Positions 31,317 to 50,618 of a stretch of DNA of 64,000 bases are shown here, in pieces. Source of the DNA: Dehalococcoidia bacterium. GTDB taxonomy: Bacteria > Chloroflexota > Dehalococcoidia > Lucifugimonadales > Lucifugimonadaceae. The notes under the pieces were generated by a model. The model did not search any database and was not told where the DNA came from. It worked only from the letters and a program-made list of their open reading frames with translations. The position numbers were made by a program, and so were the translations under genes. The stretch covers positions 1 to 64,000 of the forward strand of contig JANQQP010000019.1 of NCBI GenBank assembly GCA_028285005.1, given 5' to 3'. How positions within the stretch are numbered: position 1 is the stretch's first letter; each line of letters begins with the position of its first letter.

Positions 31317-32996
31317 CTACCCGTGCGAGCCGAGTTTTCGGCTGATCGCTGCTTCGGCAACGGGACTGATGATCTGCGCGATCTCGACGTTCACCAGAGC
31401 CGGGCCGTTGTAGTCGAAAGCGCGTTTCATGGCCGGCTCGAGCTGCTCGAAGCTGGTCACATGCTCCGAGTGAGCACCAAGACCCTGTGCCACCTGGTCG
31501 TATCTCGTTGGCAACAGATCGGTCCAGACCGGTCGACCGTACAGACCTTTCTGGATCTGCCAGTCGATTCCCCAGATGGAGTTGTTGCCGACGATCATCT
31601 TGACCGGCAAGTTGTGGCGGACCATCGTGTCGATCTCCATCCCGTTGAAGCCGAACGACCCGTCTCCCACCGCAAGCACAACACGCTCGTCTGGGAGCGC
31701 AACCTGCGCGCCGAGCGCATACGGCAACCCGACACCGATCATTCCGAAGCTGGACACGTTGTGAAAGCGGAATGGCTTGTCCCGCTTGATCGATGCGCGC
31801 AGGAAGTGACAGTAGTCTCCTCCGTCGTAAGTGATGTGCGTGTCCGAGTCGATGAACTTCTGCAACGTCTCGCTGATGAACATGGGATGGATGGGATCGG
31901 CGGCTGACGCCAGTTCGTACAGTTCAGCCATCCACGAGTCGTGCTCAGCCCTTAGCGAGGCAAGCCAGTCGTCGCGACGTGTCCAGTCCAGTTTTTTCGC
32001 TGCGTCTGACATCTGACTAACGACAGGTCCGAGGTCGCCAAGGATGCCAACCTCAACTGTCCGGGCTCGACCGATCTCCGCTGGAGACGGATCGATAACT
32101 ATCACCTTCGCGTTCTGAGCAAACGGCGGGCTTCCGCCGAAGCCAAGCGTGTAGTCGAGCCGCTTGCCGAGCATCAGGACTACGTCGGCTTCGCCAACTT
32201 TCTGCGCAGCCCGGTTCAGTGGTAGATAGCCAAGCCCGATGCTGTATTCGTGTGAGTCCGGAATAAGCGCTCGGGCCGAGTCTTCGGAGACAAATGGAAT
32301 GTGAGTCTGCTCGACGAACTCTTGGACGGTTTCCGGGTCAGCCGTAGCTCCGGCCGACGAACCGGCCATGATCAGCGGCCGCTCCGCACGGTTGAGCAGT
32401 TGGAGAGCTCGTTCAACCTGCGTCGAATCACCGGCAACCTTCTGCGGGAGACTGTGCTCCCTCGGCGCGTATCTTGCGGCCGCGGCATCGTCTACCTCGG
32501 CGGCCTGGAAGTCGTGAGGAATGGTTAGATGTACCGGGCCTTGCCGACCCGAGAGAGCAGTACGGAATGCGAGAGCGACGTATTCGGGGATGCGTTCGGG
32601 TGATGGAACCTGCCAGGCGCCTTTCGTGACTGGTGCGGCGACTCCAACCTGGTCGAACTCCTGCATAGCGCCTCGACCGAGGTTCGGTGAATCAGCGGAA
32701 CCGGAGATGTTGATCACGGGAGCTTCGGAGTGGATCGCGTTCGCAAGAGCAGGCACGGCGTTCGCGTGGCCGGGCGTCGTGGAAAGCGTCACAGCCCCGC
32801 GTCTCAGGATCCGTGAGTACGAATCAGCTGCATGAACGGCGCCGGATTCGTGCCTGAAGTCGACCATCCTGAAGTCTTCATCATGCATCTTGTCCAGCAT
32901 GTCGAGGATGTGGTCGCCGGCGATGCCGAATACTGTGTCGACTCCTTCGGCCTTGAGCGCCTTTATCAGGAGATCGCTTCCAGTGACTTTGGCCAT
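31317..32996 (-). CDS. acetolactate synthase-like thiamine diphosphate enzyme
   Basis: A 559-residue ThDP-dependent decarboxylase/lyase of the AHAS-oxalyl-CoA decarboxylase superfamily. The N-terminal domain has the catalytic Glu (DFRHESGAVHAADSYSR). The central domain binds nucleotide or FAD. The C-terminal ThDP motif is VGDGSFGFNGMEIDTMVRHN through VGNNSIWG (GDG-x(24-27)-NN). No regulatory subunit gene is adjacent, so branched-chain amino acid synthesis is not the obvious role; 2-hydroxyacyl-CoA lyase, oxalyl-CoA decarboxylase or carboligase activity are alternatives. The transketolase-like gene follows 120 bases downstream. Confidence 0.8.
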   Translation of the reverse strand: MAKVTGSDLLIKALKAEGVDTVFGIAGDHILDMLDKMHDEDFRMVDFRHESGAVHAADSYSRILRRGAVTLSTTPGHANAVPALANAIHSEAPVINISGSADSPNLGRGAMQEFDQVGVAAPVTKGAWQVPSPERIPEYVALAFRTALSGRQGPVHLTIPHDFQAAEVDDAAAARYAPREHSLPQKVAGDSTQVERALQLLNRAERPLIMAGSSAGATADPETVQEFVEQTHIPFVSEDSARALIPDSHEYSIGLGYLPLNRAAQKVGEADVVLMLGKRLDYTLGFGGSPPFAQNAKVIVIDPSPAEIGRARTVEVGILGDLGPVVSQMSDAAKKLDWTRRDDWLASLRAEHDSWMAELYELASAADPIHPMFISETLQKFIDSDTHITYDGGDYCHFLRASIKRDKPFRFHNVSSFGMIGVGLPYALGAQVALPDERVVLAVGDGSFGFNGMEIDTMVRHNLPVKMIVGNNSIWGIDWQIQKGLYGRPVWTDLLPTRYDQVAQGLGAHSEHVTSFEQLEPAMKRAFDYNGPALVNVEIAQIISPVAEAAISRKLGSHG

Positions 32997-33548: not shown

Positions 33549-33935
33549 GTGATCACACCGCAGATAAAACGCCGCACCCTGAGATGGGCCTTCTCCACGA
33601 CGCTGGCTATGCTGGCGTTTGTGGCGCTTCTGCTGCCAATCGTCACTCCGGGACTCAATCCGGGTCTCGTCGGGGTGCAGCCGTTCCATGGACACGTGAC
33701 GGTGAACGGTGTCGTAGAGGCGCACAGTCACGACCTCGACTCAACAGAGAACGACGGACTCGTTTTCACGAGCGACAACTCCGGTGCAGCCGCCGGTGGC
33801 CTGACCATCATGACACCTCCGGCTGAACGCACCACGCCCACGGGGACGACCACCCGGCAACTGGTACTCGTTGGCCCAGCGTTCGATCAGTGGACGCCCG
33901 ATTCTCCTGTCACTCCACCACGCCTTTCAGCCTGA
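33549..33935 (+). CDS. small membrane-anchored protein of unknown function
   Basis: A 128-residue protein starting at GTG. It has a basic N-terminus and one hydrophobic helix (about 13-33, WAFSTTLAMLAFVALLLPIV), so it is either anchored with its C-part outside or secreted. The outer part carries HGHVTVNGVVEAHSHDL, a His-rich patch that resembles the motif style of the next gene, then a Thr/Pro-rich tail. I do not recognise a family. The next gene, 78 bases downstream, encodes a His-rich lipoprotein, so a shared metal-related extracytoplasmic role is possible. Confidence 0.55.
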   Translation: MITPQIKRRTLRWAFSTTLAMLAFVALLLPIVTPGLNPGLVGVQPFHGHVTVNGVVEAHSHDLDSTENDGLVFTSDNSGAAAGGLTIMTPPAERTTPTGTTTRQLVLVGPAFDQWTPDSPVTPPRLSA

Positions 33936-34013: not shown

Positions 34014-35030
34014 TTGCTATTACAGAGAAAATCGCGTGCGCTCTTATCCGTGGGAGTGATAAGCGCAGTGGCGGCAATCGCCGTCGCATGTGGCTCCGAT
34101 GAGCCAGCGGCAGTGCCGACCTCCACTCCTGTTCCCGAGCCGACGGCCACGCCATCGCCCCAGCCAACGGCGACTACAGAGCCGCACGACCACACGTCGC
34201 ATCACCATGGTCCCGTCGAATCTTCAGGGATGTCGGTCGACATCAACCTTGAAGTTGACGCGGCGTCGGGCGTGAACCTTGAGATCGTGCCGACAGGTTT
34301 CGAATTCACACCTCGAAACGTGAATCTCGATCACATCGACGGAGAGGGACACGCCCACGTCTACGTCAATGGAGTCAAGCTCGGCCGGGTCTACGACCGT
34401 TGGGTCCACATCGACGGGCTGGAGCCAGGCGACCACAACATCGCAGTGACTCTCAATGCCAACACGCACGCCGACTACACATCAGGTGGAGCGCCGGTGA
34501 TCGTGAGTAAGACTGTCACGGTCCCGGATCACAGCGACGCCAATGGTCACGGGCACGGACATTCAGGACATGCCGACGGAGTCGAAGCTGAAGGGCCGAT
34601 GAGTGTCCAGGTCTCGGCTGAGCCGGATGCAGCGTCCGGGGCGAATGTGTTCATCACCGTGGATGGCTTCAAGTTCACACCCGAAAACGTAAACGAAGAC
34701 CACGTCGATGGTGAAGGACATGCTCACATCTACGTCGACGGCAAGAAGGTCGGCAGACTCTACGGGTCTTCAGTGCACCTTGGCGATCTGTCGGAAGGCG
34801 AGCATGAGATTCGAGTGACGTTGAACTCGAATACGCATGCCGACTACACGGTTGATGGCCAGGTAGTTGAAGCGGTGACGACTGTGAACGTGGAAAAGGG
34901 CGGTGAGCCGAAGCAAGATTCGCACGGTCACGACCATCACGACGACGACCACGGGCACATGTCGGACGACAGTCACGGCGATGACGAGAAGATGCAGGAA
35001 TCACACGGCGGCGACGCGCATGGTAGTTAG
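34014..35030 (+). CDS. His-rich lipoprotein with duplicated GEGHAH domain
   Basis: A 338-residue exported protein. A lipobox signal (VAAIAVACG, Cys26) is followed by a Pro/Thr-rich linker and a His cluster (HDHTSHHHG). Two homologous beta domains come next (about 73-170 and 196-294), sharing GEGHAH(V/I)YV(N/D)G, K(L/V)GR(V/L)Y and VTLN(A/S)NTHADYT. His/Asp-rich stretches lie between them (HGHGHSGHAD) and at the C-terminus. Such composition suggests binding of copper or another transition metal at the outer membrane face, but no characterised homologue is claimed. It starts at TTG with AAAGGAAAG upstream. A terminator hairpin follows. Confidence 0.75.
   Translation: MLLQRKSRALLSVGVISAVAAIAVACGSDEPAAVPTSTPVPEPTATPSPQPTATTEPHDHTSHHHGPVESSGMSVDINLEVDAASGVNLEIVPTGFEFTPRNVNLDHIDGEGHAHVYVNGVKLGRVYDRWVHIDGLEPGDHNIAVTLNANTHADYTSGGAPVIVSKTVTVPDHSDANGHGHGHSGHADGVEAEGPMSVQVSAEPDAASGANVFITVDGFKFTPENVNEDHVDGEGHAHIYVDGKKVGRLYGSSVHLGDLSEGEHEIRVTLNSNTHADYTVDGQVVEAVTTVNVEKGGEPKQDSHGHDHHDDDHGHMSDDSHGDDEKMQESHGGDAHGS
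34230..34895 (+). repeat. tandem intragenic duplication in the His-rich lipoprotein
   Basis: Codons for residues 73-170 (34230-34523) and 196-294 (34599-34895) encode two copies of one domain, separated by a His/Gly-rich linker. Conservation is at protein level; the DNA copies have diverged, so the duplication is old. Confidence 0.8.
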
Positions 35031-35068: not shown

Positions 35069-35098
35069 CGGGGCCGGGTGAATTCTCACCCGGCCCCG
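35069..35098. terminator. hairpin between convergent genes
   Basis: A perfect 13-bp GC-rich stem (CGGGGCCGGGTGA, 35069-35081, with 35086-35098) and loop ATTC, placed between the lipoprotein stop and the convergent E1 beta stop. There is no long T-run on either side, but the position suggests bidirectional termination. Confidence 0.6.
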
Positions 35099-35122: not shown

Positions 35123-36202
35123 TTAGCGCCCGAGCATGGTCATTACCGTACCTACAACGTCGTCTGGATTGGGCATGAACGCCTCTTCCAGTCCTTTGTT
35201 GTAGGGAACAGGAGTGTGGGGCGCTGTGACTCGCTTCACCGGTGCGTCGAGGTAGTCGAATGCTTTGTCCGCGATCACTGCGGCAAACTCTGAAGCCATG
35301 CTGGCCCGAGGAGTGTCCTCGTCGACCACGACTACTCGATTGGTCTTCTGCACAGACTCGATCAGGATCTCTTCGTCGAACGGTGACAGCGACATCATGT
35401 CGACAACCTCAGCGTCGATGCCGTGCTCTGCCAGCTTCTCAGCGGCCTCGTTGCACACCACCGAGGTGTAGGACATCCCGACAAGCGTGATATCGCTACC
35501 GCGCCTGAGATACCGGCCTTTGCCGATCTCGATCGTGAACGACTCGTCAGGGACGAAGCCAGACATGTTGATCAGCTTCTTGTCGTTCACAAGGAAAACC
35601 GGGTCATCGTCGCGGATTGCGGCGGCGAGCAAGCCGCGGCATGAGTAAGGGTCTGAAGGCACGACTACCTTGAGGCCCGGGATGTGCGCCAGCATCGAGT
35701 AGAAGCTCTCGGAGTGCTGCGCGGCGTGTCCTGTGCCCGCGCCTGAACGCGCGAAAAGGGTGAGCGGCACCTTGGTCTGCCCGGCGAACATGTAACGCGA
35801 TTTCGCTGCGTTCGAGAGAAGCTGGTCGTAGGCAACCGTCACGAAGTCGAAGTACATAAGGTCGACTACAGGCCTGAGCCCGGTCAGCGCGGCTCCGACC
35901 GCAGCTCCGACAAACCCGGCTTCTGAGATGGGGGCGTCCCGAATTCGCTCTGGTCCGAAGTCCTGAACGAGGCCTTTGGTAGCGGCAAATGGTCCACCCC
36001 AGGCGTCAAGGGGCTCCTTGGTCTCTTTGTCAAAACCGCCAGAAATGTCTTCGCCCATCAGGAACACGTCAGGATCGTGATTGAGTTCATCCCGTAGCGT
36101 CTTGTTAAAGGCGTCTCGGTACCGCATCTCCTGTCCCGGAACGTCGTATCCGGGTCCCAGTCCAACGGCTGAACTCTGCGGCGGGTTTTCGATGGTCGTC
36201 AT
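35123..36202 (-). CDS. 2-oxoacid/acetoin dehydrogenase E1 beta subunit
   Basis: A 359-residue beta subunit of a heterotetrameric ThDP dehydrogenase (pyruvate, branched-chain oxoacid or acetoin type). Blocks: MRYRDAFNKTLRDEL, FLMGEDISGGFD, RIRDAPISEAGFVGAAVGAAL with the conserved Glu, RSGAGTGHAAQHSESF, and the transketolase C-domain VVDEDTPRASMASEF. It pairs with the alpha subunit gene 44 bases upstream. GTGHAAQHS is close to AcoB/PdhB. No E2 or lipoamide dehydrogenase gene lies nearby. Confidence 0.9.
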   Translation of the reverse strand: MTTIENPPQSSAVGLGPGYDVPGQEMRYRDAFNKTLRDELNHDPDVFLMGEDISGGFDKETKEPLDAWGGPFAATKGLVQDFGPERIRDAPISEAGFVGAAVGAALTGLRPVVDLMYFDFVTVAYDQLLSNAAKSRYMFAGQTKVPLTLFARSGAGTGHAAQHSESFYSMLAHIPGLKVVVPSDPYSCRGLLAAAIRDDDPVFLVNDKKLINMSGFVPDESFTIEIGKGRYLRRGSDITLVGMSYTSVVCNEAAEKLAEHGIDAEVVDMMSLSPFDEEILIESVQKTNRVVVVDEDTPRASMASEFAAVIADKAFDYLDAPVKRVTAPHTPVPYNKGLEEAFMPNPDDVVGTVMTMLGR

Positions 36203-39933: not shown

Positions 39934-40674
39934 TTGGCGTCGCTAATTTCATCCATCAGAGAGCGCAACAAGACGACGCCCACCTGGTTGAAGGTCCTTA
40001 TACCTATCCTCGCGGTCGGAGGCCTTGGTGTTGTCGCTGTTCTTGCAGCGGTGGTCGCTTTCGTGGTGACTGCGTGGCTCGGCCAACCAGTCCCAGTCCT
40101 CGGCTTTGACCAGACCTTCGAGCAGCCAATTAGCTTCCCTCACACTGTGCATGCCGGTACTGGTCAACTCACGGACGCCTCTGGTGGGCTCCGAATGAAC
40201 CAGCACGGTGAGCCGCTGGAAGCACTCGGACTGGACTGTACTTTCTGTCACAGGACCGTCACGACGCAGGCCAGCGCTTACGTCCCGCCTGTTGCACAGT
40301 GTGCGTTCTGTCACCAGGCGATTGGGCCGGACAGCAGTGAACCATTGACGCAGTTGAGGGTGAACGCCGGAATCATTGGAGATGACCCATCGCCGATCAA
40401 CTGGCGTCGAGTACACCGCATGCCTGACCACGTCAGGTTCGTACATGAACCACACATTCGATATTTGACAGCTAACCCGTCTGCGATTGGCAACGCGGCA
40501 GACGGAGTGAACAGCGCTGCATCGGTTAAGCCTGCGCTCACATGCTCAACGTGCCACGGCGACGTGGCAGCTATGGAGCAAGTAGAACAGGTGGAGGCGT
40601 TGAAGATGGGCCAGTGTGTGGACTGCCACCGTGACAATGGCGCTCCAACCGATTGTGCGGCTTGCCACCACTAG
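39934..40674 (+). CDS. actA: ActA, pentahaem cytochrome c subunit of alternative complex III
   Basis: A 246-residue membrane-anchored multihaem cytochrome. One N-terminal helix (about 21-47) precedes five CxxCH motifs: C102TFCH, C123AFCH, C204STCH, C228VDCH and C241AACH. Extra His residues (FPHTVHAG, VRFVHEPHIRY) can be distal ligands. Five haems and one anchor match ActA of other ACIII complexes, which passes electrons from menaquinol oxidation towards periplasmic cytochrome c. It starts at TTG. The following genes encode the other ACIII subunits. Confidence 0.92.
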   Translation: MASLISSIRERNKTTPTWLKVLIPILAVGGLGVVAVLAAVVAFVVTAWLGQPVPVLGFDQTFEQPISFPHTVHAGTGQLTDASGGLRMNQHGEPLEALGLDCTFCHRTVTTQASAYVPPVAQCAFCHQAIGPDSSEPLTQLRVNAGIIGDDPSPINWRRVHRMPDHVRFVHEPHIRYLTANPSAIGNAADGVNSAASVKPALTCSTCHGDVAAMEQVEQVEALKMGQCVDCHRDNGAPTDCAACHH

Positions 40675-40721
40675 TAGTGAATGACCGGACAGATGTTTAG
40701 CGAATGGGGATCGACAGCTAG

Positions 40722-43091
40722 ATGAAGCTCACCAGACGAGAATTTCTGGCGCTGAGTGGAAAGGCCACCGCAGGAGCGGTGATCTTCGCCGCGTGTGGAA
40801 TTCCTGAGAGCGAACTGATTATCCAGAGCCCTGTCGAGCTGCCGGAAGACCTGGTGCGTGGAGAAGATGCGTGGTTCGCCACCATCAACCCGGACGGCCG
40901 AAATGGCGATGGACTGATCGTTCGAGTCATGCAGGGCCGTGCGAAGAAGATCGCTGGAAACGTCGATCACCCGGTCAACATGGGCGGGCACGGCCTGGGC
41001 GATGACGCTGAACTCCAGATGCTCTATCACCCGGACAGACTCGCTGGACCATTGTTCAGGCGAACGCACGGCGGCGTCCTGGCTCAGACGCCATGGGCGC
41101 AGGCGGAGAACTTGCTGGCGCAGGCAGTCGACACTTCGAGCATAACCGTCGTTACCAATCCTCTGCGCGGTCATCTGGGCTGGGTCGCAAGCAGGTTCGC
41201 CGAGGTTAAAGGTGGACGTTACCTGGCATTTGATCCAATGGAGCAGGGCGTACTGCACGGCGCGGTCAAGACGATATTTGACGCTGACGTTCTCCCTGAC
41301 TTCGACATCGCCAATGCCCACACCGTTCTGTCATTCGGCGCTGACTGGCTGGGCAGTTGGATTTCGCCTGTCAGGCACACCGTCCAGTACGGAAAACTTC
41401 GAGACGGTGACGAGCGCGGATACATGATTCACGGCGAGTCTCGGATGTCGATGACAGCGGCGGCCGCGGATTTGTGGCTGCCGACTCGACCGGGAACTGA
41501 AGGTGATGTTGCGCTTGCGATCGCACATGTGATCATCGACGAGGGTCTTGCTTCAGACAGCGAGATCAACGCGTTCACCTCTGTATTGCCGCCCGGAATC
41601 CTCAACGCGTACAGGCCAGAGGCCGTGGCAGCGAAGTCAGGCGTGCCCGAGGAGAAGATCATTAGGGCCGGTCGCCGCTTCGGTTCGAGTCGACCAAGCG
41701 TTGCCTTTGGCGGTGGCAGTGCGGGCGCCCACGTACACGGGACCTTCGCTCTCTCGGCGATTTACGCCCTGAACACACTTGTCAGCGCTGTGGGAAGCAC
41801 CGGGGGCGTGACTCTGAACCCGACCTCGCCGGTTGCCGGGCTTTCGGGCAGCTCGACCGGGGCAAGCTTCCAGGAATGGGAAGAGGAGCTGGCTCAGTGG
41901 CGCGCGGGCAACGTAGAGACTGTGGTCATCAGAGGCGTTGACCTCGTCCACGGTATGCCAGACTCCGTCGATATCGTCGGCGCACTCAGATCTGTTCCAA
42001 ACGTGGTCGTGTTCGGCACGGTCATGGACGACACGATGGCCGAAGCGACTCTTGCGCTTCCGGAAAAGAGCTTCCTGGAAGACTGGGGCACAGATATACC
42101 CGAGCCGGCGCCCGGATATCAGACCGTCGGGTTCCAGCAGCCAGTTGTTGGGCCAACGATTACGGCGAACGAGACCAGTTTGATCTCTGATGCCAGAGGC
42201 TTTGGCGATGAGCTACTGCGGCTCGCTGGCGCCGACATCGGCGCTGGATCTATGCGCGAGCTCGTGGAGCGAACGGCCAGGGAACTCTTCGACGAAGGTC
42301 GAGCGAGCGGATCAGTGGTCGCTCCGAATGAAAATCTATTCCGCACAGGAGCGTTACAGCGCGGCGGTTGGTGGGATACTTCAGCCACTGCGCCAAGCAC
42401 TTCCTTCAACTTCCCGAACTTCATTCGCGGCAAGACTGAAGCTGAGTTCTCAAGCACATCGAACCTGGGTGCAGGAATAGACCTAACTCTTGTCCCATTC
42501 GTGTCGAACAGCCTGGATACGGGGCGCCTGTCTCCAACACCCTGGGCGCAGCAAACGCCAGACCCGATGTCGAGCGCAACCTGGGCTCTGTGGGCGGAGC
42601 TAAATAAGGAAGATGCGAAGTCTATCGAGGTTGGTGAGGGTGACATAATCTTCATCAAATCTTCCGTTGGCGAGATCGAAGCGATCGCTTACCCGCATCC
42701 CGGTGTACCGCCTGGAACAGTCGGCGTGCCGGTCGGCTATGGAAAGACGGAAGGTGGCAGGTGGGCCGAGGGCCGCGGCGAAAACGTGCTTTCAATACTC
42801 GCCGATCACAAGGACGAAGAGACCGGGGCGTTGGCATGGGCCGCGACCTCAGTGCGAATTCAGAAAACTGGGCGAAGACTCAAGTTGCCCAAGTTCGAGG
42901 GAACTGTGGAAGCGTTCCCAATCGAGCCGGGTGTTCCGGTTCTGGTGGTCGCGCCTGGTGAAACAGCTCATGAGGCTGAAGAGGCGAACCACCACGAGTA
43001 TCAGAAGCTATTCGAGAGCGACGAAACAAGACGGGAAATTGGCCGAGACAGTAAAGGAGACCCAATCAGCGGGTCTGAGGCTCACGAGTAA
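40722..43091 (+). CDS. actB1: ActB1, molybdopterin-oxidoreductase-like subunit of ACIII (separate)
   Basis: A 789-residue protein with a twin-arginine signal (TRREFLALSG) ending in a lipobox-like FAACG, so it is probably a Tat-exported lipoprotein. The body has the fold signatures of molybdopterin oxidoreductases (GHGLGDDAELQMLYHPDRL, a late EVGEGDIIFIKS barrel). Cys25 of the lipobox is the only cysteine: no iron-sulphur or Mo-ligand Cys is present, as expected of the cofactor-free B1 half of ActB. In many ACIII operons B1 and B2 are fused; here the B1 stop is followed after 15 bases by a separate B2 gene. Confidence 0.9.
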   Translation: MKLTRREFLALSGKATAGAVIFAACGIPESELIIQSPVELPEDLVRGEDAWFATINPDGRNGDGLIVRVMQGRAKKIAGNVDHPVNMGGHGLGDDAELQMLYHPDRLAGPLFRRTHGGVLAQTPWAQAENLLAQAVDTSSITVVTNPLRGHLGWVASRFAEVKGGRYLAFDPMEQGVLHGAVKTIFDADVLPDFDIANAHTVLSFGADWLGSWISPVRHTVQYGKLRDGDERGYMIHGESRMSMTAAAADLWLPTRPGTEGDVALAIAHVIIDEGLASDSEINAFTSVLPPGILNAYRPEAVAAKSGVPEEKIIRAGRRFGSSRPSVAFGGGSAGAHVHGTFALSAIYALNTLVSAVGSTGGVTLNPTSPVAGLSGSSTGASFQEWEEELAQWRAGNVETVVIRGVDLVHGMPDSVDIVGALRSVPNVVVFGTVMDDTMAEATLALPEKSFLEDWGTDIPEPAPGYQTVGFQQPVVGPTITANETSLISDARGFGDELLRLAGADIGAGSMRELVERTARELFDEGRASGSVVAPNENLFRTGALQRGGWWDTSATAPSTSFNFPNFIRGKTEAEFSSTSNLGAGIDLTLVPFVSNSLDTGRLSPTPWAQQTPDPMSSATWALWAELNKEDAKSIEVGEGDIIFIKSSVGEIEAIAYPHPGVPPGTVGVPVGYGKTEGGRWAEGRGENVLSILADHKDEETGALAWAATSVRIQKTGRRLKLPKFEGTVEAFPIEPGVPVLVVAPGETAHEAEEANHHEYQKLFESDETRREIGRDSKGDPISGSEAHE

Positions 43092-43106
43092 GTTCAAGCA
43101 TTATCA

Positions 43107-43871
43107 ATGGTGACTCAAGCAGGGTTCGGAAATCATAAGTGGGCGATGGCGGTCGACGTGGACAAGTGCACGGGCTGTCAGGCCTGCGTGCTTGCCTGTC
43201 AGGTTGAGAACAACATCCCTCTCAACACCCAGGACAGGTTCGAGCGTAACCGGTCGATCGCCTGGATTCGTGTCGAACGTTACTGGGAGGGCGAGTTCCC
43301 GGACATCAAGGCACGCTTCATCCCGATAATGTGCCAGCACTGCGAGAACGCGCCCTGCGAACCGGTGTGTCCGGTGTTCGCCACCTATCACAACGCAGAA
43401 GGTATGAACATTCAGGTGTACAACCGTTGTGTTGGCACCAGGTACTGCGCAAACGGCTGCCCATACATCGTCCGGTTCTTCAACTACTGGGAACCGGTCT
43501 GGCCGGAGTCGCTCCGCAACCACCTGAACCCGGACGTCACTATCCGAAGCCGCGGAATCATGGAGAAGTGCAGCTTCTGCGTGCACCGAATTCGACGCGG
43601 CGTGAGGAAAGCTGACAGCGAAGGCCGGCCACTAAACGACGGAGAGATCACGACGGCCTGCCAGGACTCTTGTTCCACGGATGCGCTCGTATTCGGCGAC
43701 CTTAACGATCCGAACAGCAAGGTCTCAGAGATGAAGAAGAGCGACAGGTACTACACGCTGTTGCACCATCTCGGCACGAACCCGAACGTGTTCTATCTGG
43801 CAAAGATCGACGAAGACCGCGAAGTCGCGCACGCAAGCCATGAGAGCGAAGGTGGCGATGGCCACGAATAG
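43107..43871 (+). CDS. actB2: ActB2, iron-sulphur subunit of ACIII (DmsB/PsrB-like)
   Basis: A 254-residue protein with four Cys clusters of the DmsB/NrfC type: CTGCQACVLAC (24-34), CQHCENAPCEPVC, CVGTRYCANGCPY and CSFCVHRI paired with CQDSC. Variation at the third cluster fits one 3Fe-4S plus three 4Fe-4S centres, as seen in ACIII. It has no signal of its own and is presumably exported with ActB1 through Tat. It carries electrons from the NrfD-like quinol subunit. Its 3' end overlaps or abuts the next gene. Confidence 0.92.
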   Translation: MVTQAGFGNHKWAMAVDVDKCTGCQACVLACQVENNIPLNTQDRFERNRSIAWIRVERYWEGEFPDIKARFIPIMCQHCENAPCEPVCPVFATYHNAEGMNIQVYNRCVGTRYCANGCPYIVRFFNYWEPVWPESLRNHLNPDVTIRSRGIMEKCSFCVHRIRRGVRKADSEGRPLNDGEITTACQDSCSTDALVFGDLNDPNSKVSEMKKSDRYYTLLHHLGTNPNVFYLAKIDEDREVAHASHESEGGDGHE

Positions 43872-45294
43872 CGCCATAGCCGGAGATACGGCAGCCCCTG
43901 AGGACCACGGCAGCCACGGCGAGGAGATCGCCGGGCACGTTGTTCTTTTGCCTGCTCAGGTGAAGAACACCCTGGTTGATTCGACATCGGCCGGTTCTTC
44001 GAGGTTCATGCGCTGGGCGATCGCTCTGTCCGTGCTGTCTGTGATTGGAATTGTCGGTCTCGTCCTCAAATTTCTCGCGCACTCGGATGACCAGACGAAG
44101 TGGGGTTACACAGCTGCGGTAGCGGCGTTCCTTCTGACCGTGGGCGGCGGAGCGCCTCTAGTCGCCGTCGCGCCGGTGCTCGCCAAGGCGAACTGGGTGC
44201 GGCCGCTGACGAGAATAGCTTCAGCGTTCTCGCTAATCGGCGTCGTGACGATGATCGTGATGATCCCGCTGGTCGCCGTTCTGCCGCCTCTCGTCACCGA
44301 GGGAGCTCGACGCAGGTCGATCTGGTTCGAGTCGCCTGACTGGACGCCTCACACCTTCATCTTCCTGGCGATGTTCACGCTCCTGCTGGCAGGCCTCGGG
44401 CTTTTCTACACGACTGCTCTGCCAGACTTCGCAGCGATGCGCGACCACTCAAGCGGATGGCGCCAGAGAATGGGCAAGATGCTCGCACGCGGCTGGGTCG
44501 GTTCGACGGTCCAGTGGAGAACGCTGCGCATGCGCATTGGCATGTTCGGAACGTTCTACTTCCTGATCCTGATCTACGTGCACTTCCTGTTCACCAGCGA
44601 CTTTGCGATGGGAGTCGTTCCGGGCTGGCGTGACGCAATCTTCCCGATGTACCACGCCATGAGCTCGATCCAGGCTGGAGTTGCGATCACAATCCTTGCA
44701 GCGTGGGCAGGGCGTCGATACCTCGGTCTCCAGGATTATTTGAGGCTCGACCAGTTCTGGTCGCTGGGCAGGTTGCTGTTCGCTTCTTCGTTGCTGTGGA
44801 TCTACTTCTTCTTCTCAGCATTTATCGTTTTCTGGTACGGCCGCAGCCTCGCAGACATCGCGTGGGTAGACCTGTTCATCAGGGGGCCAATGATCTGGGC
44901 ATTCATCCCTGGGATGTTGATGTCATTCGTCGTTCCATGGTGGTGGCTGATCTGGAACCGAATCCGCACAAGTGTTGATGGCCCGGCGATTGGAGCGGTC
45001 ATTGTTCTATTCGGTCTGCTACTGGACCGGATGAGGATCTACGTCTCTTCCTGGTCCGTGCCGCCCGAAGAGATTCACGATCGATATCTCAAGCACATCC
45101 CTGAGACGGTCTGGCCGGACGCTTTCGACTACATGATCATCGTTGGGACGACCGCCGCCGCCGCACTAGTCGTGGCGTTGGCTTTCCGGCTGGTGCCCAT
45201 CGTTTCAATCTGGCAGACGCAGGAGTATCAGCTCCTATCCAAGCCGGTGAGGTACATCCGAGGACACGGCGTATTGGTGGCGAAGCCGGACTAG
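43858..45294 (+). CDS. NrfD-like membrane subunit of ACIII (ActF/ActC paralogue)
   Basis: A polytopic protein of 478 residues, about ten helices, in the NrfD/PsrC superfamily, with a polar N-terminal region rich in His/Glu (EDHGSHGEE). Conserved features include WVGSTVQWRTLRMRIGMF and MYHAMSSIQAGVAITILAAWAGRR. ATG 43858 has GAAGGTGG just upstream; an ATG at 43840 would add six residues. It sits between B2 and ActC, whereas ActF usually comes after ActE, so the order is rearranged. It may provide the second quinol or proton-handling membrane module. Confidence 0.82.
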   Translation: MATNSAIAGDTAAPEDHGSHGEEIAGHVVLLPAQVKNTLVDSTSAGSSRFMRWAIALSVLSVIGIVGLVLKFLAHSDDQTKWGYTAAVAAFLLTVGGGAPLVAVAPVLAKANWVRPLTRIASAFSLIGVVTMIVMIPLVAVLPPLVTEGARRRSIWFESPDWTPHTFIFLAMFTLLLAGLGLFYTTALPDFAAMRDHSSGWRQRMGKMLARGWVGSTVQWRTLRMRIGMFGTFYFLILIYVHFLFTSDFAMGVVPGWRDAIFPMYHAMSSIQAGVAITILAAWAGRRYLGLQDYLRLDQFWSLGRLLFASSLLWIYFFFSAFIVFWYGRSLADIAWVDLFIRGPMIWAFIPGMLMSFVVPWWWLIWNRIRTSVDGPAIGAVIVLFGLLLDRMRIYVSSWSVPPEEIHDRYLKHIPETVWPDAFDYMIIVGTTAAAALVVALAFRLVPIVSIWQTQEYQLLSKPVRYIRGHGVLVAKPD

Positions 45295-45396
45295 ACCGGA
45301 CGAGCAAGAAAGAGCCTTAAAGCAAACGGACGAGGAGATACGAGACCCACATAGCGGGTCTGGCCCACTCAAAGAGGGGCGGCGTTAAGAACAGAG

Positions 45397-46776
45397 ATGC
45401 AACAAAGACGCGTCATAGACCAGGTGGAGACGAACCGAGTTCTACTGAACGGTCAGTTGGACACGCCCAAGTGGTGGCTGCCGACCGTGATTGGACTCGG
45501 CATCGTCGTGATCATCGGATTCGTGATTATCGGGTTCATGGTCAACCGCGGCCTTGGCGTGACCGGTCTCTCTCGCCCCGTCTACTGGGGATTGTTCATC
45601 ACGACCTTCGTGTTCTGGGTCGGTATCAGTCACGCCGGAATCATGATTTCGGCAATCCTGCGCCTGACCCAGGCTGAATGGCGGCGGCCAGTCACTCGAG
45701 CCGCCGAGTTGCTTACAGTGTTCTCACTGTTGACAGCACTGATATTCCCGTTGATCCACGCCGGACGACCATGGCGCATCGCCTACTGGATTCTGCCCTA
45801 CGACTTCGCTCGAGGGATCTTCCCGAACATCCGGTCCCCGCTCATCATGGACCCGGTCGCAATCAGCACGTACCTGACAGGAAGCACGCTCTTCCTTTAC
45901 GTGGCGCTTTTGCCTGACCTTGGAAATCTTCGGGACCGCACGCAGGGTTGGCAGAAGGCCATGTACACGGTGCTTGCCCTGGGCTGGCGCGGTAATCCGC
46001 GACAGTGGAAGCTGCAGACCGTCGGAGGCATTCTGCTGTCTGCGTTGATGCTCCCGATCTTCGTTTCGGTGCACTCCATCGTTTCGTGGGACTTTGCGGT
46101 CACGCCGGCTGTTGAAGGCTGGCACTCCACGATTTTTGCGCCCTACTTCGTCATCGGCGCTGTTCACTCTGGAGTGTCGGCTGTTGTGACGATGATGGCG
46201 CTGATGAGGTGGCTCTGGAAGTGGGACGACTTCATTCGCCCCGAGCACTTCGACGCTCTCGCCAGGCTGCTCATCGTTGTTGCGACGGCATGGCTCGGAT
46301 TCACGTTCCTTGAACTGATCTTCGCCATGTACTCGCTGGATGCGCCTGAGATCGCACTACGTGAACTCCAGATCTTCTCGTGGCCCTGGAACATGATGTT
46401 CGTCGTGTTCTTGATGACGGGCTATGTGATCCCGGTGGGCATGTGGCTATTCAAGAGCGTCCGCAACAACATCGCTTTGATGTTCTGGACGTCTCTGTTC
46501 GTGAACATTGGCATGTGGCTGGAACGCTTCATGATCATCGTGCCAGGGCTCTCACGCCGCACTCCGTTCGTCTACACCTGGGACTCATACCGACCGAGTC
46601 TCGTGGAGTGGTCGATTCTCGTTTGGTCAGTCGCATGGGTCACGTTCCTCATGCTTCTTTTCTCAAGGTTCTTCCCGCTCGTGCCACTGTTCGAGCAAAA
46701 GGAGAGCCAGATATTTGTTGACAGGATCAAGATCGGAAGGGCGAGCGTGCCCGCGATTCTGAGGGAACAGGAGTAG
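45397..46776 (+). CDS. actC: ActC, NrfD-like quinol-oxidising membrane subunit of ACIII
   Basis: A 459-residue integral membrane protein with about ten helices. The signature SRPVYWGLFITTFVFWVG with SHAGIMISAILRLTQAEWRRP and FPLIHAGRPW is that of ActC, the menaquinol-binding NrfD subunit. It starts at ATG 103 bases after the preceding gene; that gap holds a small 6-bp hairpin (AGACCC/GGGTCT) and no gene. ActD follows after 5 bases. Electrons from quinol pass to ActB2 and then ActA. Confidence 0.92.
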   Translation: MQQRRVIDQVETNRVLLNGQLDTPKWWLPTVIGLGIVVIIGFVIIGFMVNRGLGVTGLSRPVYWGLFITTFVFWVGISHAGIMISAILRLTQAEWRRPVTRAAELLTVFSLLTALIFPLIHAGRPWRIAYWILPYDFARGIFPNIRSPLIMDPVAISTYLTGSTLFLYVALLPDLGNLRDRTQGWQKAMYTVLALGWRGNPRQWKLQTVGGILLSALMLPIFVSVHSIVSWDFAVTPAVEGWHSTIFAPYFVIGAVHSGVSAVVTMMALMRWLWKWDDFIRPEHFDALARLLIVVATAWLGFTFLELIFAMYSLDAPEIALRELQIFSWPWNMMFVVFLMTGYVIPVGMWLFKSVRNNIALMFWTSLFVNIGMWLERFMIIVPGLSRRTPFVYTWDSYRPSLVEWSILVWSVAWVTFLMLLFSRFFPLVPLFEQKESQIFVDRIKIGRASVPAILREQE

Positions 46777-46781
46777 CCGAG

Positions 46782-47291
46782 ATGGCTGACAGAAGCATTC
46801 TGGGGTTGTTCCAAGAGGCCGAACCAGCTGCTGATGCGATGGACGGGCTTGCCCGTGCCGGTTTCGAGCAGGGCACGTTCGATGTGCTTACGGGCACTCC
46901 TTACCCGGAGGGCGCGTTTGGTGAGCACGTGCCGCAGCACAGGCTTTTCCGGTTCCCCGCGTTCGGAGCGATCATTGGCTTCACGACCGCGATCCTGCTG
47001 ACGGCGGGAACACAGATCGCGTTCCCGTTAGTGACCGGTGGTAAGCCGATTCTCTCGCTGTTCGCAATGATCATCATCATGTACGAGATGACGATGCTTG
47101 CCGCCGTCATCGCGACGGTGATTGGAATCATCTTCGAGTCCAGGCTTCCGAACATGAACCCGGGAGCATACGACGAGCGCATCACCGAGGGATGGATCGG
47201 CGTTGTTGTCAGCGTGGAGAGCACGAGGGCGCAGGAAGCCGAGTCGGTGCTCAAGACCGCAGGTGCGTTGGAGATTAAGCACGCTTCATGA
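46782..47291 (+). CDS. actD: ActD, DUF3341 membrane subunit of ACIII
   Basis: A 169-residue protein with two transmembrane helices (about 62-82 and 93-115) joined by a short loop. The N-terminal alpha/beta part SILGLFQEAEPAADAMDGLARAGF and the sequence MTMLAAVIATVIGIIFE resemble DUF3341/ActD. The C-terminal part (EGWIGVVVSVESTRAQEAES) is soluble and ferredoxin-like. It overlaps actE by 4 bases (ATGA). Confidence 0.9.
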   Translation: MADRSILGLFQEAEPAADAMDGLARAGFEQGTFDVLTGTPYPEGAFGEHVPQHRLFRFPAFGAIIGFTTAILLTAGTQIAFPLVTGGKPILSLFAMIIIMYEMTMLAAVIATVIGIIFESRLPNMNPGAYDERITEGWIGVVVSVESTRAQEAESVLKTAGALEIKHAS

Positions 47292-47899
47292 TTTCACGAG
47301 TCGGGCTGAACATAGCTGCGCCCACTAAACGGCGTCGCACGGTCTTCGTAGGAATACTTGGCCTGTTCGCGCTTGTCGCTGCTGCCTGCAGTGTTCAGGA
47401 GACCAACGCGTATCCCGTCGACATCTTCACGGAGATGCACTACAACCAGTCAAACCGCAACCAGGAGCCTCCACGGCTTCAGCCGCCTGCGGAGTCGGTC
47501 GCATTTGAATCGGTCGGTGGTCCAGAGGTCGCGTATAACGTGCCTGAGTTCAGGCGAAGGCCATACGACCCGGTCGTGGCTGGTGAGCTGTACGCAATCA
47601 ACTGCGCTGTGTGCCACGGAGTCAACGGTGAAGGTAACGGGCCGGCCGCAGCGCACCTCACATCTGATCAGAGCTACTGGGCTACTGCGAGCGAACAGAA
47701 TCCGGCCCGAACCACGTATGCAGAGCCAGCGAACCTGCTCGCCACACGTGGAGCGCGGACAGAAGACATCTGGTTCGTGACCCTGCAGAACGGCGTGCAG
47801 GTCATGCCGGCCTTCGGAAAGCAACTAAGCGAAGAGGAAATCTGGGACATCATTGCGTACCTCTTCGACGAACAGACGGGGCTCGGAACGGCGCAGTAA
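47288..47899 (+). CDS. actE: ActE, monohaem cytochrome c lipoprotein of ACIII
   Basis: A 203-residue lipoprotein with a signal ending AAAC (Cys34). One haem site is C106AVCH110 with the distal Met in QVMPAFG. The block VDIFTEMHYNQSNRNQEPPRLQPPAESV before the haem domain is typical of ActE, given here only in outline. It would pass electrons to a soluble carrier or an oxidase; no oxidase genes are in the window. The cytochrome c maturation genes start directly downstream. Confidence 0.92.
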   Translation: MISRVGLNIAAPTKRRRTVFVGILGLFALVAAACSVQETNAYPVDIFTEMHYNQSNRNQEPPRLQPPAESVAFESVGGPEVAYNVPEFRRRPYDPVVAGELYAINCAVCHGVNGEGNGPAAAHLTSDQSYWATASEQNPARTTYAEPANLLATRGARTEDIWFVTLQNGVQVMPAFGKQLSEEEIWDIIAYLFDEQTGLGTAQ

Positions 47900-47948
47900 A
47901 CTAGATTCTGATCCACACGCACGGGGATCCAATGTCCACCTTCGTGCA

Positions 47949-48509
47949 ATGCCGATGAAAATCGTCCCAGACCGGTTCATCAGTCTCCGCGTCCCTGCCT
48001 GGCTCATGCTTGGCATTGTCGTGCTAGTCGCATTCGCGGCTTGCGTCCAGGAAGACGACCTAACACCAGATCAGCGCGCGTATACGCTGGACCGCGAGTT
48101 GATGTGCCCTGTGTGCGATGGCCAGACCATCGATCAATCTCACGCTCAGATAGCTGTCGATATGAAGCAGATCGTGCGGGAGAAGATCGCGGAGGGCGAG
48201 TCGAACGAAGAGATCCGAGACTACTTCGTCGCTCGCTACGGTGAGGTTGTTCTGGCTGCGCCTGAGGCGTCCGGGTTCAACCTGATCGTCTGGTTGATGC
48301 CGGCAGTTATCGCGGGCGGCGGCGGTCTCGCGGTTGTCTGGGTGCTGAAGAACATGCGCCGCAACTCAGAGCGGTACGCAGCGGCCACCAATGTGACGCT
48401 GGCCGACCGTCAACTCAAGAAGTACCTCGACAAGGTCGATTCAGACATCGGCCGTATGCAGTCTTCGGATGCGCAGGACGAAGTGGGGCGAGAGAGCAGG
48501 AACGAGTAG
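47949..48509 (+). CDS. ccmH: CcmH-like cytochrome c haem lyase subunit
   Basis: A 186-residue CcmH/CycL protein. The redox motif is in LMCPVCDGQTIDQSHAQIA (C53, C56), which reduces apocytochrome cysteines before haem attachment. A hydrophobic signal with a possible lipobox (VAFAAC) comes first and a second helix (about 112-132) anchors it. The frame is open from 47853, which would overlap actE; ATG 47949 is chosen because the signal peptide begins there. The ccmF ATG directly follows the stop codon. Confidence 0.88.
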   Translation: MPMKIVPDRFISLRVPAWLMLGIVVLVAFAACVQEDDLTPDQRAYTLDRELMCPVCDGQTIDQSHAQIAVDMKQIVREKIAEGESNEEIRDYFVARYGEVVLAAPEASGFNLIVWLMPAVIAGGGGLAVVWVLKNMRRNSERYAAATNVTLADRQLKKYLDKVDSDIGRMQSSDAQDEVGRESRNE

Positions 48510-50618
48510 ATGGCCGATCTAGGCGTCATATCCCTTCTGCTCGGTCTCGGTCTGTCAGCGTATGCAGCTATTGGCTCAGTCGTTGGTCAGACTCGTGGCG
48601 TACCGGCTCTGATCGTGAGCGCCCGACGTTCGATATACCTCTCCGGAGCTGCTTCTACCGCGGCTGCGCTAGCGTTGCTAACAGCGTTCATGCAGAACGA
48701 CTTCTCTATCGAGTATGTGCATGGTCACAGCAACACGGTGTTGGAGCGCGGGTTCACGCTGGTTGCGTTCTACTCGGGCAACGAGGGCTCACTGCTCTAC
48801 ATCCTGATGGCTCTGGCGCTTATGTCCGTAGCCGCGGTGATCTGGGCGCCAAAGCGGTTTGCGAGGAGCCTTCCCTACACAATCGCGGTTCTGGCCGGGA
48901 CTCAGGCGTTTTACTACGTCGTGCTCATCTTCTTTGCCAGTCCGTTCACGACCTTTCCGGGTGAAGCGCCTCTCGAAGGCCTCGGGCTAAACCCACTTCT
49001 AGAACATCCCGGCATGTACAGCCATCCGCCGATCATCATGGCGGGGCTCGTCGGCATCACTATTCCATTTGCATACGCGGCCGGTGCTCTCATATCCGGC
49101 AACTACGGCGACGACTGGGTAGATATCGCTCGCGTATCAGGAATCGTGATCTGGGGGATTCTCGGTCTCGGACTGCTGATCGGCGCGTGGTGGGCGTACA
49201 CGATCCTGGGCTGGGGCGGTTACTGGAGCTGGGACCCCATCGAGAACGTCGCTTTCATGCCCTGGCTCGTGATGACAGCGTTCATCCACTCGATCATGGT
49301 CCAGAAGCGTCGAGGCATGTTCCGCATGTGGAATGTCGCGCTCCTAAATATCGCGTTCGTGCTGGCGCAACTCGGCATGTTTATTAATCGCGGCGGCCCC
49401 GTGGTATCGGTGCACTCCTTCGCTTCATCTTCGCTCGGGGCGATATTCATCTCATTCATGATGGTCAGCCTGGTCTTCGCGTTTGGCATCTTCCTGTGGC
49501 GATACCCGCAGTTGAAGAGCGACCGCACTGTAGAGTCATTCTTGTCTCGTGAAGCGTCATTCCTGGTCAACAACTTCCTGCTACTCGCGGTGGTTGCGGT
49601 CACGCTCTGGGGCGTGGTCTTCCCGGTCTTCTCCGATCTCGCTCGAGACGTGAGCGTCAGCATCGCGGCGCCCTACTTCAACAGAGTGAACGGCCCGTTG
49701 CTACTTGCGGTGGTAGCCATCATGGGAGTGGGACCGCTTCTGCCTTGGCGTAGAACATCGGCAAGGTCCGTTCGCAGTTGGTTCGTGTGGCCGACGCTTG
49801 GAGGACTTGCGGTCATCGCTGGTCTCTTCGCGTCCGGGATCAACGAATGGGTTGCCGTGATCGCGTTCGGCGTCCTTGCTTTCGTCGCCTTAGCGATTGC
49901 CGAGGAGTGGTGGCGAGGCACTGCAGCACGACACCGTAGCGGAGACAGCTGGCCTGCGGCCTACTGGAACCTGATCAGCGGAAACAGGCCGCGGCACGGC
50001 GGCTACATCGTGCATTTGGCGGTGTTGGCGCTATCGATCGGGATCATAGGCACGCAGTTCTTCGACCAGCGTGTGGACGTCTCGTTGTTACCTAGCGAGA
50101 GCGCAATCATCGACAACTACCGGGTTGAGTTTGTTGAGATTACCGAAGGGGCTCGGGCCGACCGCATAACAACGAGCGCTCGACTGGATATCTATAAGAT
50201 CAATCGGTCGGAGTATGACCTGGATCAAAGCGGCTATTTCATCGATACGCATAAGTACGATCTGCGCGGAGGTTCGTATCCAGGAGATAGGGCGATCGGG
50301 AGCCTGGATCCATGGCAGGGCTTCTACCCCGCGTTCAACCAGGTCTCTGTACGATCTGGTATCCGCTCGACACCGGTTGAGGACCTGTACCTGATTCCGA
50401 GCAACTTCAACAGCGACGGCAGCGTTGCCCTTCGCATGAGCATCAACCCTCTGGCGATGTGGCTTTGGATATCAGGACCAATCTTCCTGCTTGGCACTGT
50501 AGTTGCGCTCTGGCCTGCTCCGGCGGTGGAACGCAGTATTGCCACAGCCAGAAATCGGAGGAGAGCGCCGGCTCCTTCGGGAGCGGCCGAGAAGACGATG
50601 TCCGGAGATCAAACCTAA
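48510..50618 (+). CDS. ccmF: CcmF, haem lyase membrane component
   Basis: A 702-residue protein with about 15 transmembrane helices. The haem-handling WWD domain is clear (LGWGGYWSWDPIENVAFMPW), as are conserved SHPPIIMAG and PVVSVHSFASS segments. It joins haem from CcmE to apocytochromes in the periplasm together with CcmH. A periplasmic domain (about 530-650) precedes the last helix and an Arg/Ala/Pro tail. CcmA, B, C and E are not in the window. Confidence 0.96.
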   Translation: MADLGVISLLLGLGLSAYAAIGSVVGQTRGVPALIVSARRSIYLSGAASTAAALALLTAFMQNDFSIEYVHGHSNTVLERGFTLVAFYSGNEGSLLYILMALALMSVAAVIWAPKRFARSLPYTIAVLAGTQAFYYVVLIFFASPFTTFPGEAPLEGLGLNPLLEHPGMYSHPPIIMAGLVGITIPFAYAAGALISGNYGDDWVDIARVSGIVIWGILGLGLLIGAWWAYTILGWGGYWSWDPIENVAFMPWLVMTAFIHSIMVQKRRGMFRMWNVALLNIAFVLAQLGMFINRGGPVVSVHSFASSSLGAIFISFMMVSLVFAFGIFLWRYPQLKSDRTVESFLSREASFLVNNFLLLAVVAVTLWGVVFPVFSDLARDVSVSIAAPYFNRVNGPLLLAVVAIMGVGPLLPWRRTSARSVRSWFVWPTLGGLAVIAGLFASGINEWVAVIAFGVLAFVALAIAEEWWRGTAARHRSGDSWPAAYWNLISGNRPRHGGYIVHLAVLALSIGIIGTQFFDQRVDVSLLPSESAIIDNYRVEFVEITEGARADRITTSARLDIYKINRSEYDLDQSGYFIDTHKYDLRGGSYPGDRAIGSLDPWQGFYPAFNQVSVRSGIRSTPVEDLYLIPSNFNSDGSVALRMSINPLAMWLWISGPIFLLGTVVALWPAPAVERSIATARNRRRAPAPSGAAEKTMSGDQT

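Follow-up and report, generated by a model that had tools for sequence, protein, structure and literature searches.

We propose that two adjacent genes of a Dehalococcoidia bacterium (contig JANQQP010000019.1, assembly GCA_028285005.1; the stretch analysed, 64,000 nt in length, is called the window below) form an extracytoplasmic copper-capture unit, a reading that we favour by a modest measure. The pair encodes a lipoprotein with two copies of a domain named here GEGHAH after its signature motif, and a small His-rich membrane-anchored protein. The metal interpretation of the lipoprotein is probably right, copper is the likely metal in the window, and the lipoprotein is likely an extracytoplasmic metal-capture or chaperone module common to cobalt and copper systems.

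The lipoprotein gene (34014..35030, + strand, as are all its parts given below) is an intact ORF of 338 aa with a TTG start. Its product reads, in order, as a signal peptide, a His/Pro/Thr-rich stretch, domain 1, a His-rich linker, domain 2, and a His/Asp-rich tail. In the signal peptide (34014..34091; helix at residues 3-22 in the model) the sequence AIAVAC26 behind a hydrophobic stretch is by eye a plausible lipobox, with AVA directly before Cys26, the predicted lipid-bearing residue; on this ground the protein is a predicted bacterial lipoprotein. Domain 1 (residues 71-171, 34224..34526) and domain 2 (residues 194-294, 34593..34895), both recognized by HMM match, are about 101 aa each and 56-58% identical to one another. 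Each carries its own version of the first motif (GEGHAHVYVNG or GEGHAHIYVDG), and NTHADYT is common to both copies; there is one Met per domain. The conserved His residues are H113, H115, and H152 in domain 1 and H236, H238, and H275 in domain 2, equivalent to H43, H45, and H82 in the domain-2 numbering used below (model columns 44, 46, and 83). The protein has 31 His in total: five in the N-terminal part, where the first cluster HDHTSHHHG (34185..34211) falls in a low-confidence part of the model, six in each domain, five in the linker (residues 173-186, 34530..34571; also of low model confidence), and nine in the C-terminal tail (34923..35027), which is predicted to be disordered. A sequence-only reading of this DNA had pointed to the two motif-bearing copies, to His clusters at three places, and to a lipobox at Cys26; the copies and the clusters were borne out, and the lipobox is plausible as described.

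The small-protein gene (33549..33935, + strand, 128 aa) is the first of the pair and ends 78 bp upstream of the lipoprotein gene on the same strand. As the sequence-only reading had it, HGHVTVNG and EAHSHDL lie behind a membrane helix, the protein having one hydrophobic stretch, and the residues H47, H49, H59, and H61 are invariant in an alignment of eight relatives. A terminator-like hairpin with a 13-pair stem follows the pair (35069..35098, + strand), although it is weak by count, being one site against a mean of 1.2 in shuffled sequences. Judged by eye, the flanking genes are acetolactate-synthase-like (31317-32996) and E1-beta-like (35123-36202), and both are on the strand opposite to the pair. 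The two closest loci (L031 and L032) keep the gene order of the window (acetolactate-synthase-like, small His-rich, GEGHAH, E1-beta-like); L031 is the best relative, with a domain 2 that is 82% identical and the same neighbors on both sides.

Of the 80 loci compared (those of the best 80 among 482 relatives), 11 carry a gene for a small-protein relative upstream of the GEGHAH gene, and the family is present in 20 of 197 genomes of the window's class. When its places were compared in these 20 genomes, the gene preceded CopC by 810-1777 bp, in the same orientation, in 13 (G023, G024, G043, G058, G095, G099, G105, G125, G144, G157, G165, G187, and G190), adjoining a GEGHAH gene in three (G000, the window's own genome, G064, and G121), and near neither in four (G089, G110, G111, and G176). 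An HEDREV-type protein adjoins the small-protein gene in eight of nine inspected loci, the window excluded. About 42 kb from the pair, on the minus strand of the window's contig, lies a sister pair (G000:C1:76921-78360, equal to L153:12921-14360) that consists of another small His-rich protein, which the small-protein model matches weakly (19.4 bits), and a protein termed P0003, which is itself of the HEDREV type with a middle part that is cupredoxin-like by eye.

The GEGHAH protein is not a chance reading frame: 482 relatives were confirmed among 84,980 species genomes scanned. A domain search had been suggested together with the first reading; an HMM search of 81 proteins gave 110 domain copies (two weak 30-residue matches dropped), with two copies in 29 of the 81. 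By record title the best 80 of the 482 relatives come from Chloroflexota, Alpha- and Gammaproteobacteria, Acidimicrobiia, Patescibacteria, and archaeal MAGs, while the window's own class holds distant relatives with a more divergent form of the domain. A search of viral contigs gave 28 pattern matches and 0 relatives. The domain goes unnamed in Pfam and NCBIfam, for the window protein as for its relatives (Pfam run on the 81 proteins), and in the literature searched (searches including the motif string and DUF4399); a PDB sequence search with the window protein gave chance-level matches only. As labels, DUF2846, PEGA, and TcaA were rejected, being subthreshold or marginal Pfam matches that each span only about 20-40 residues; PEGA (PF08308) scored 21.3 bits against a cut-off of 20.8 over profile positions 13-44 of 71 only, and reached E<=0.001 in two of the 81 members. 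The choice-of-anchor-M NCBIfam model matches one member of the relative set, and in one locus (L083:6963-9254) two GEGHAH domains sit inside a long protein that is by eye of the choice-of-anchor-M surface type.

The closest named family is DUF4399 (PF14347), of which we consider the GEGHAH domain a remote homolog by profile comparison, though by the curated cut-off it lies outside the family. The window protein has no DUF4399 match at E<=1 and thus stays below the 28-bit cut-off. Among eight distant relatives found with the GEGHAH domain, four (L013, L015, L018, and L019) match DUF4399 at 20.8-24.1 bits, below the cut-off, and the other four lack a match; the cut-off is exceeded only by L111 and L112, both found through the DUF4399 model. 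The homology rests on profile-profile comparison: hhalign aligned GEGHAH with seven Chloroflexota domain sequences that the DUF4399 model had retrieved at 98.1% probability (E 7.5e-14), and with 15 bridging and DUF4399 sequences, part of which had been found with the GEGHAH query, at 99.3% (E 4.9e-20). Both families share the GxGHxH strand and a later (N/D)xH, whereas the GEGHAH domain adds K52, R55, and Y47. Pfam gives DUF4399 as of unknown function, and the titles of the literature found for it do not concern its function. In a Loktanella MAG a GHHH-type protein, DUF4399 by eye, is encoded next to a GEGHAH gene (L050:2963-3469, minus strand).

AlphaFold2 predicted the domain with high confidence (pLDDT 96.9, pTM 0.88) from an alignment of 95 of the 110 domain sequences, the 15 omitted being near-duplicates and one with unknown bases. 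VIA-align matched the model to FnIII sandwiches (7jgt with Z 9.5 and rmsd 1.8 over 78 residues; the best, an FnIII array, with Z 9.7), and Foldseek alone gave no match at E<=0.001 for the domain model. On the predicted structure the domain is an FnIII-like sandwich. The full-length model (20 alignment rows; mean pLDDT 78.9) has two rigid domains above 90, and its His-rich segments, mostly below 50-70, are predicted to be disordered; these low-confidence segments hold 19 of the 31 His. Thus the His clusters are distinct from the ordered site: the structure prediction suggested as a check gave a confident fold, but the His clusters turned out to lie outside the ordered domains. In the strand order, H43 and H45 are on one strand face and H82 is in the loop after a later strand, and in an Ig/FnIII topology the three might come together at the same end of the fold.

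Of 146 distinct domain sequences, drawn from all loci in the set, 134 retain all three His. H82 is missing in six of the 10 sequences without H45 and in two of the 136 with it (Fisher p 4.6e-7, shared ancestry ignored); most double losers look like one clade, and the joint losses would count as one or two events. The second copies of L055, L062, L066, and L093 have lost H43 and H45 (GYG) and kept H82, with the first copy intact.

The neighborhoods of the relatives point to two metals. These counts concern the best 80 of the 482 relatives and lean to close relatives; neighbor HMMs (CbtA, CopCD, and the small protein) were trained on members drawn from these 80 loci, and neighbor genes were called by a simple ORF picker, which leaves start sites and some neighbors uncertain. 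In 25 of the 80 loci cbtA is directly upstream of the GEGHAH gene (<=100 bp, same strand), and CobW and CobN genes are downstream in nine of these (identities in L037 by Pfam). In seven of eight loci examined, all but L064, the cbt unit is preceded by a cobalamin riboswitch, and three annotated plasmid records list CbtB, CbtA, and then the GEGHAH gene as a ‘hypothetical protein’, with DUF1636 nearby. Genes under a cobalamin riboswitch are normally turned off while B12 is abundant, a behavior that in the cbt loci suits uptake better than detoxification. In 32 of the 80 loci there is no CbtA, CopCD, or small-protein neighbor within the flanks, and many of these have unrelated flanks by eye. Two Loktanella plasmids (L029 and L030) show a third context, a GEGHAH gene beside YHYH-protein and PEBP-family genes, with no clear metal.

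The Chloroflexota relatives accompany CopC-CopD and cupredoxin-like parts, not CbtA. In 16 of the best 80 loci, all Chloroflexota by record title, copC-copD follows the GEGHAH gene in the same orientation at a distance of 0-880 bp; ten of the 16 are very similar genomes with a near-identical layout. In these 16 the protein around the GEGHAH domains is similar to P0003 in its N- and C-terminal parts, whereas P0003 has a different middle. Fusions add to the copper signal: PCu(A)C is joined to GEGHAH in L109 (PCuAC 2.8e-17) and in a Sulfitobacter plasmid protein (L027, 1.5e-7), and plastocyanin-family domains score over the cut-off in the distant relatives L015 and L019. A ZIP domain is fused in L103. 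Among the 197 class genomes, CopC is found in 76 and the GEGHAH domain in 18, so that most CopC genomes are without the domain, and it is absent from all four searched genomes of the same family as the window genome; copper uptake therefore does not need it. We also observed a membrane protein of about 500 aa with the sequence AHGFGQRYDLP, recurring beside GEGHAH and CopCD genes (L036, L047, L051, L055, L059, L062, and L154); its L154 copy has no Pfam match.

For the window itself copper fits best, because the genome has copCD and two haem-copper oxidases and no detected CbtA, and because the small-protein family stands upstream of copC in 13 of its 20 class genomes. The two rigid domains joined by low-confidence His-rich linkers also agree with it. 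Against it stand the single CopC-CopD gene being on another contig than the pair, so that the pair is not beside copCD, the similarity of ten of the 16 copCD genomes, and the family-wide count, in which cobalt is the strongest neighbor signal (25 vs. 16 of the best 80 loci). The surface metal handling supposed by the sequence-only reading is well supported by the CbtA, CopC-CopD, PCu(A)C, plastocyanin, and ZIP associations, the riboswitches, and the three His, and its suggestion of copper stands as the best guess for this genome. Its further idea of service to respiratory copper or haem proteins fared less well: no result links the protein to haem, and respiratory delivery is only possible, the two COX1 genes being on other contigs than the pair. 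The genome's CopC-CopD gene (G000:C8:16677-18986, equal to L152:8678-10987) carries a C-terminal cytochrome c domain by Pfam. Elsewhere in the window (39934-50618) there are, by eye, alternative-complex-III-like genes followed by CcmH- and CcmF-like genes.

Three other readings were weighed against the copper-capture unit. The lipoprotein could bind cobalt (or cobalt/nickel) and supply Co(II) for cobalamin synthesis, as its CbtBA-linked relatives probably do. The cbtA, CobW, and CobN neighbors, the cobalamin riboswitches, and the plasmid loci all argue for this, but the window genome (87.7% complete) has no CbtA match, the window has no Rfam match, and the Chloroflexota relatives keep company with copper parts, so that we regard cobalt as unlikely here. 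About as doubtful, or slightly less so, is a broad His-rich sink for Cu, Zn, or Ni, whose task would be to buffer surplus metal on the outside and not to chaperone it in uptake. The share of His in low-confidence segments is what one would cite for it, along with one relative fused to a ZIP transporter and one to choice-of-anchor-M surface-protein domains; the ordered site, however, is far better conserved in the alignment than the linkers, and riboswitch control of the cbt loci suits uptake and not detoxification. The least probable of the three is an FnIII/PEGA-like surface module for adhesion or protein contact with no metal function, in which the conserved His, Lys, Arg, and Asn would be structural or serve another ligand. 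The FnIII-like fold and the marginal PEGA score agree with such a module, as do K52, R55, and N80, which are nearly invariant and as conserved as the three His, but it is at odds with the joint loss of H45 and H82 and with an association with metal transporters and copper chaperones that recurs across several phyla.

For the copper-capture unit we infer the following scheme. The lipoprotein would be tethered outside the membrane through Cys26, and its disordered His-rich segments would collect Cu(II). Each rigid FnIII-like domain may then hold one ion through three His, two from GxGHxH and one from the NxH loop. The small membrane protein would act with the lipoprotein at the membrane and help to hand over the metal; the CopC-CopD importer or copper enzymes such as cytochrome oxidase are the most likely receivers.

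To our knowledge, the route of cobalt and copper from outside to the bacterial inner-membrane importers is poorly known. We tentatively suggest, at somewhat less than even confidence, that GEGHAH/DUF4399 is an unrecognized general extracytoplasmic transition-metal receptor, a three-His FnIII site swapped between importers. In Roseobacter-type bacteria it would act, controlled by B12 riboswitches, as the outer receptor missing from the CbtAB cobalt uptake system; in Chloroflexota it would receive or chaperone copper next to CopC-CopD, partnered by a small His-rich membrane protein. The domain has no Pfam or NCBIfam name and tracks cobalt and copper modules, and its 482 loci are a ready gene set for testing; the site-lost second copies described above would be useful natural controls. 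A metal role, if true, would be the first functional handle on DUF4399, and a domain shared across cobalt and copper uptake contexts is the wider finding, of more interest than the single gene.

Among known systems, CbtAB shares its context with the family, GEGHAH genes being directly behind cbtA under cobalamin riboswitches. It differs in being a predicted or putative membrane cobalt transporter (PMC4771312, PMC2667541, PMC3621897, in the portions available), and the available portions of PMC2667541 and PMC4771312 name no extracytoplasmic partner. CopC-CopD is the downstream neighbor in the copper loci, yet the window protein itself differs from CopC, with no match to PF04234 at E<=1. PCu(A)C chaperones are similar in their periplasmic copper delivery, which is proposed for the window protein, and in a His-rich tail; in AccA the His/Met-rich tail binds Cu(II) (PMC13006917, in the excerpt available). 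The GEGHAH fusions L109 and L027 link the two further, with PCuAC as a fusion partner only: the window protein has no match to the PCuAC model, and the PCu(A)C motif HXnMX21/22HXM cannot form within a domain that has one Met. YcnI (DUF1775) of B. subtilis binds Cu(II) outside the cell and, according to the available part of PMC12362106, exchanges it with the CopC domain of YcnJ (CopC-CopD), the importer that it partners. The window protein has no Pfam DUF1775 match and thus belongs to a different sequence family, and it shows no N-terminal histidine brace, but YcnI is the closest working analog of the role proposed here for the lipoprotein.
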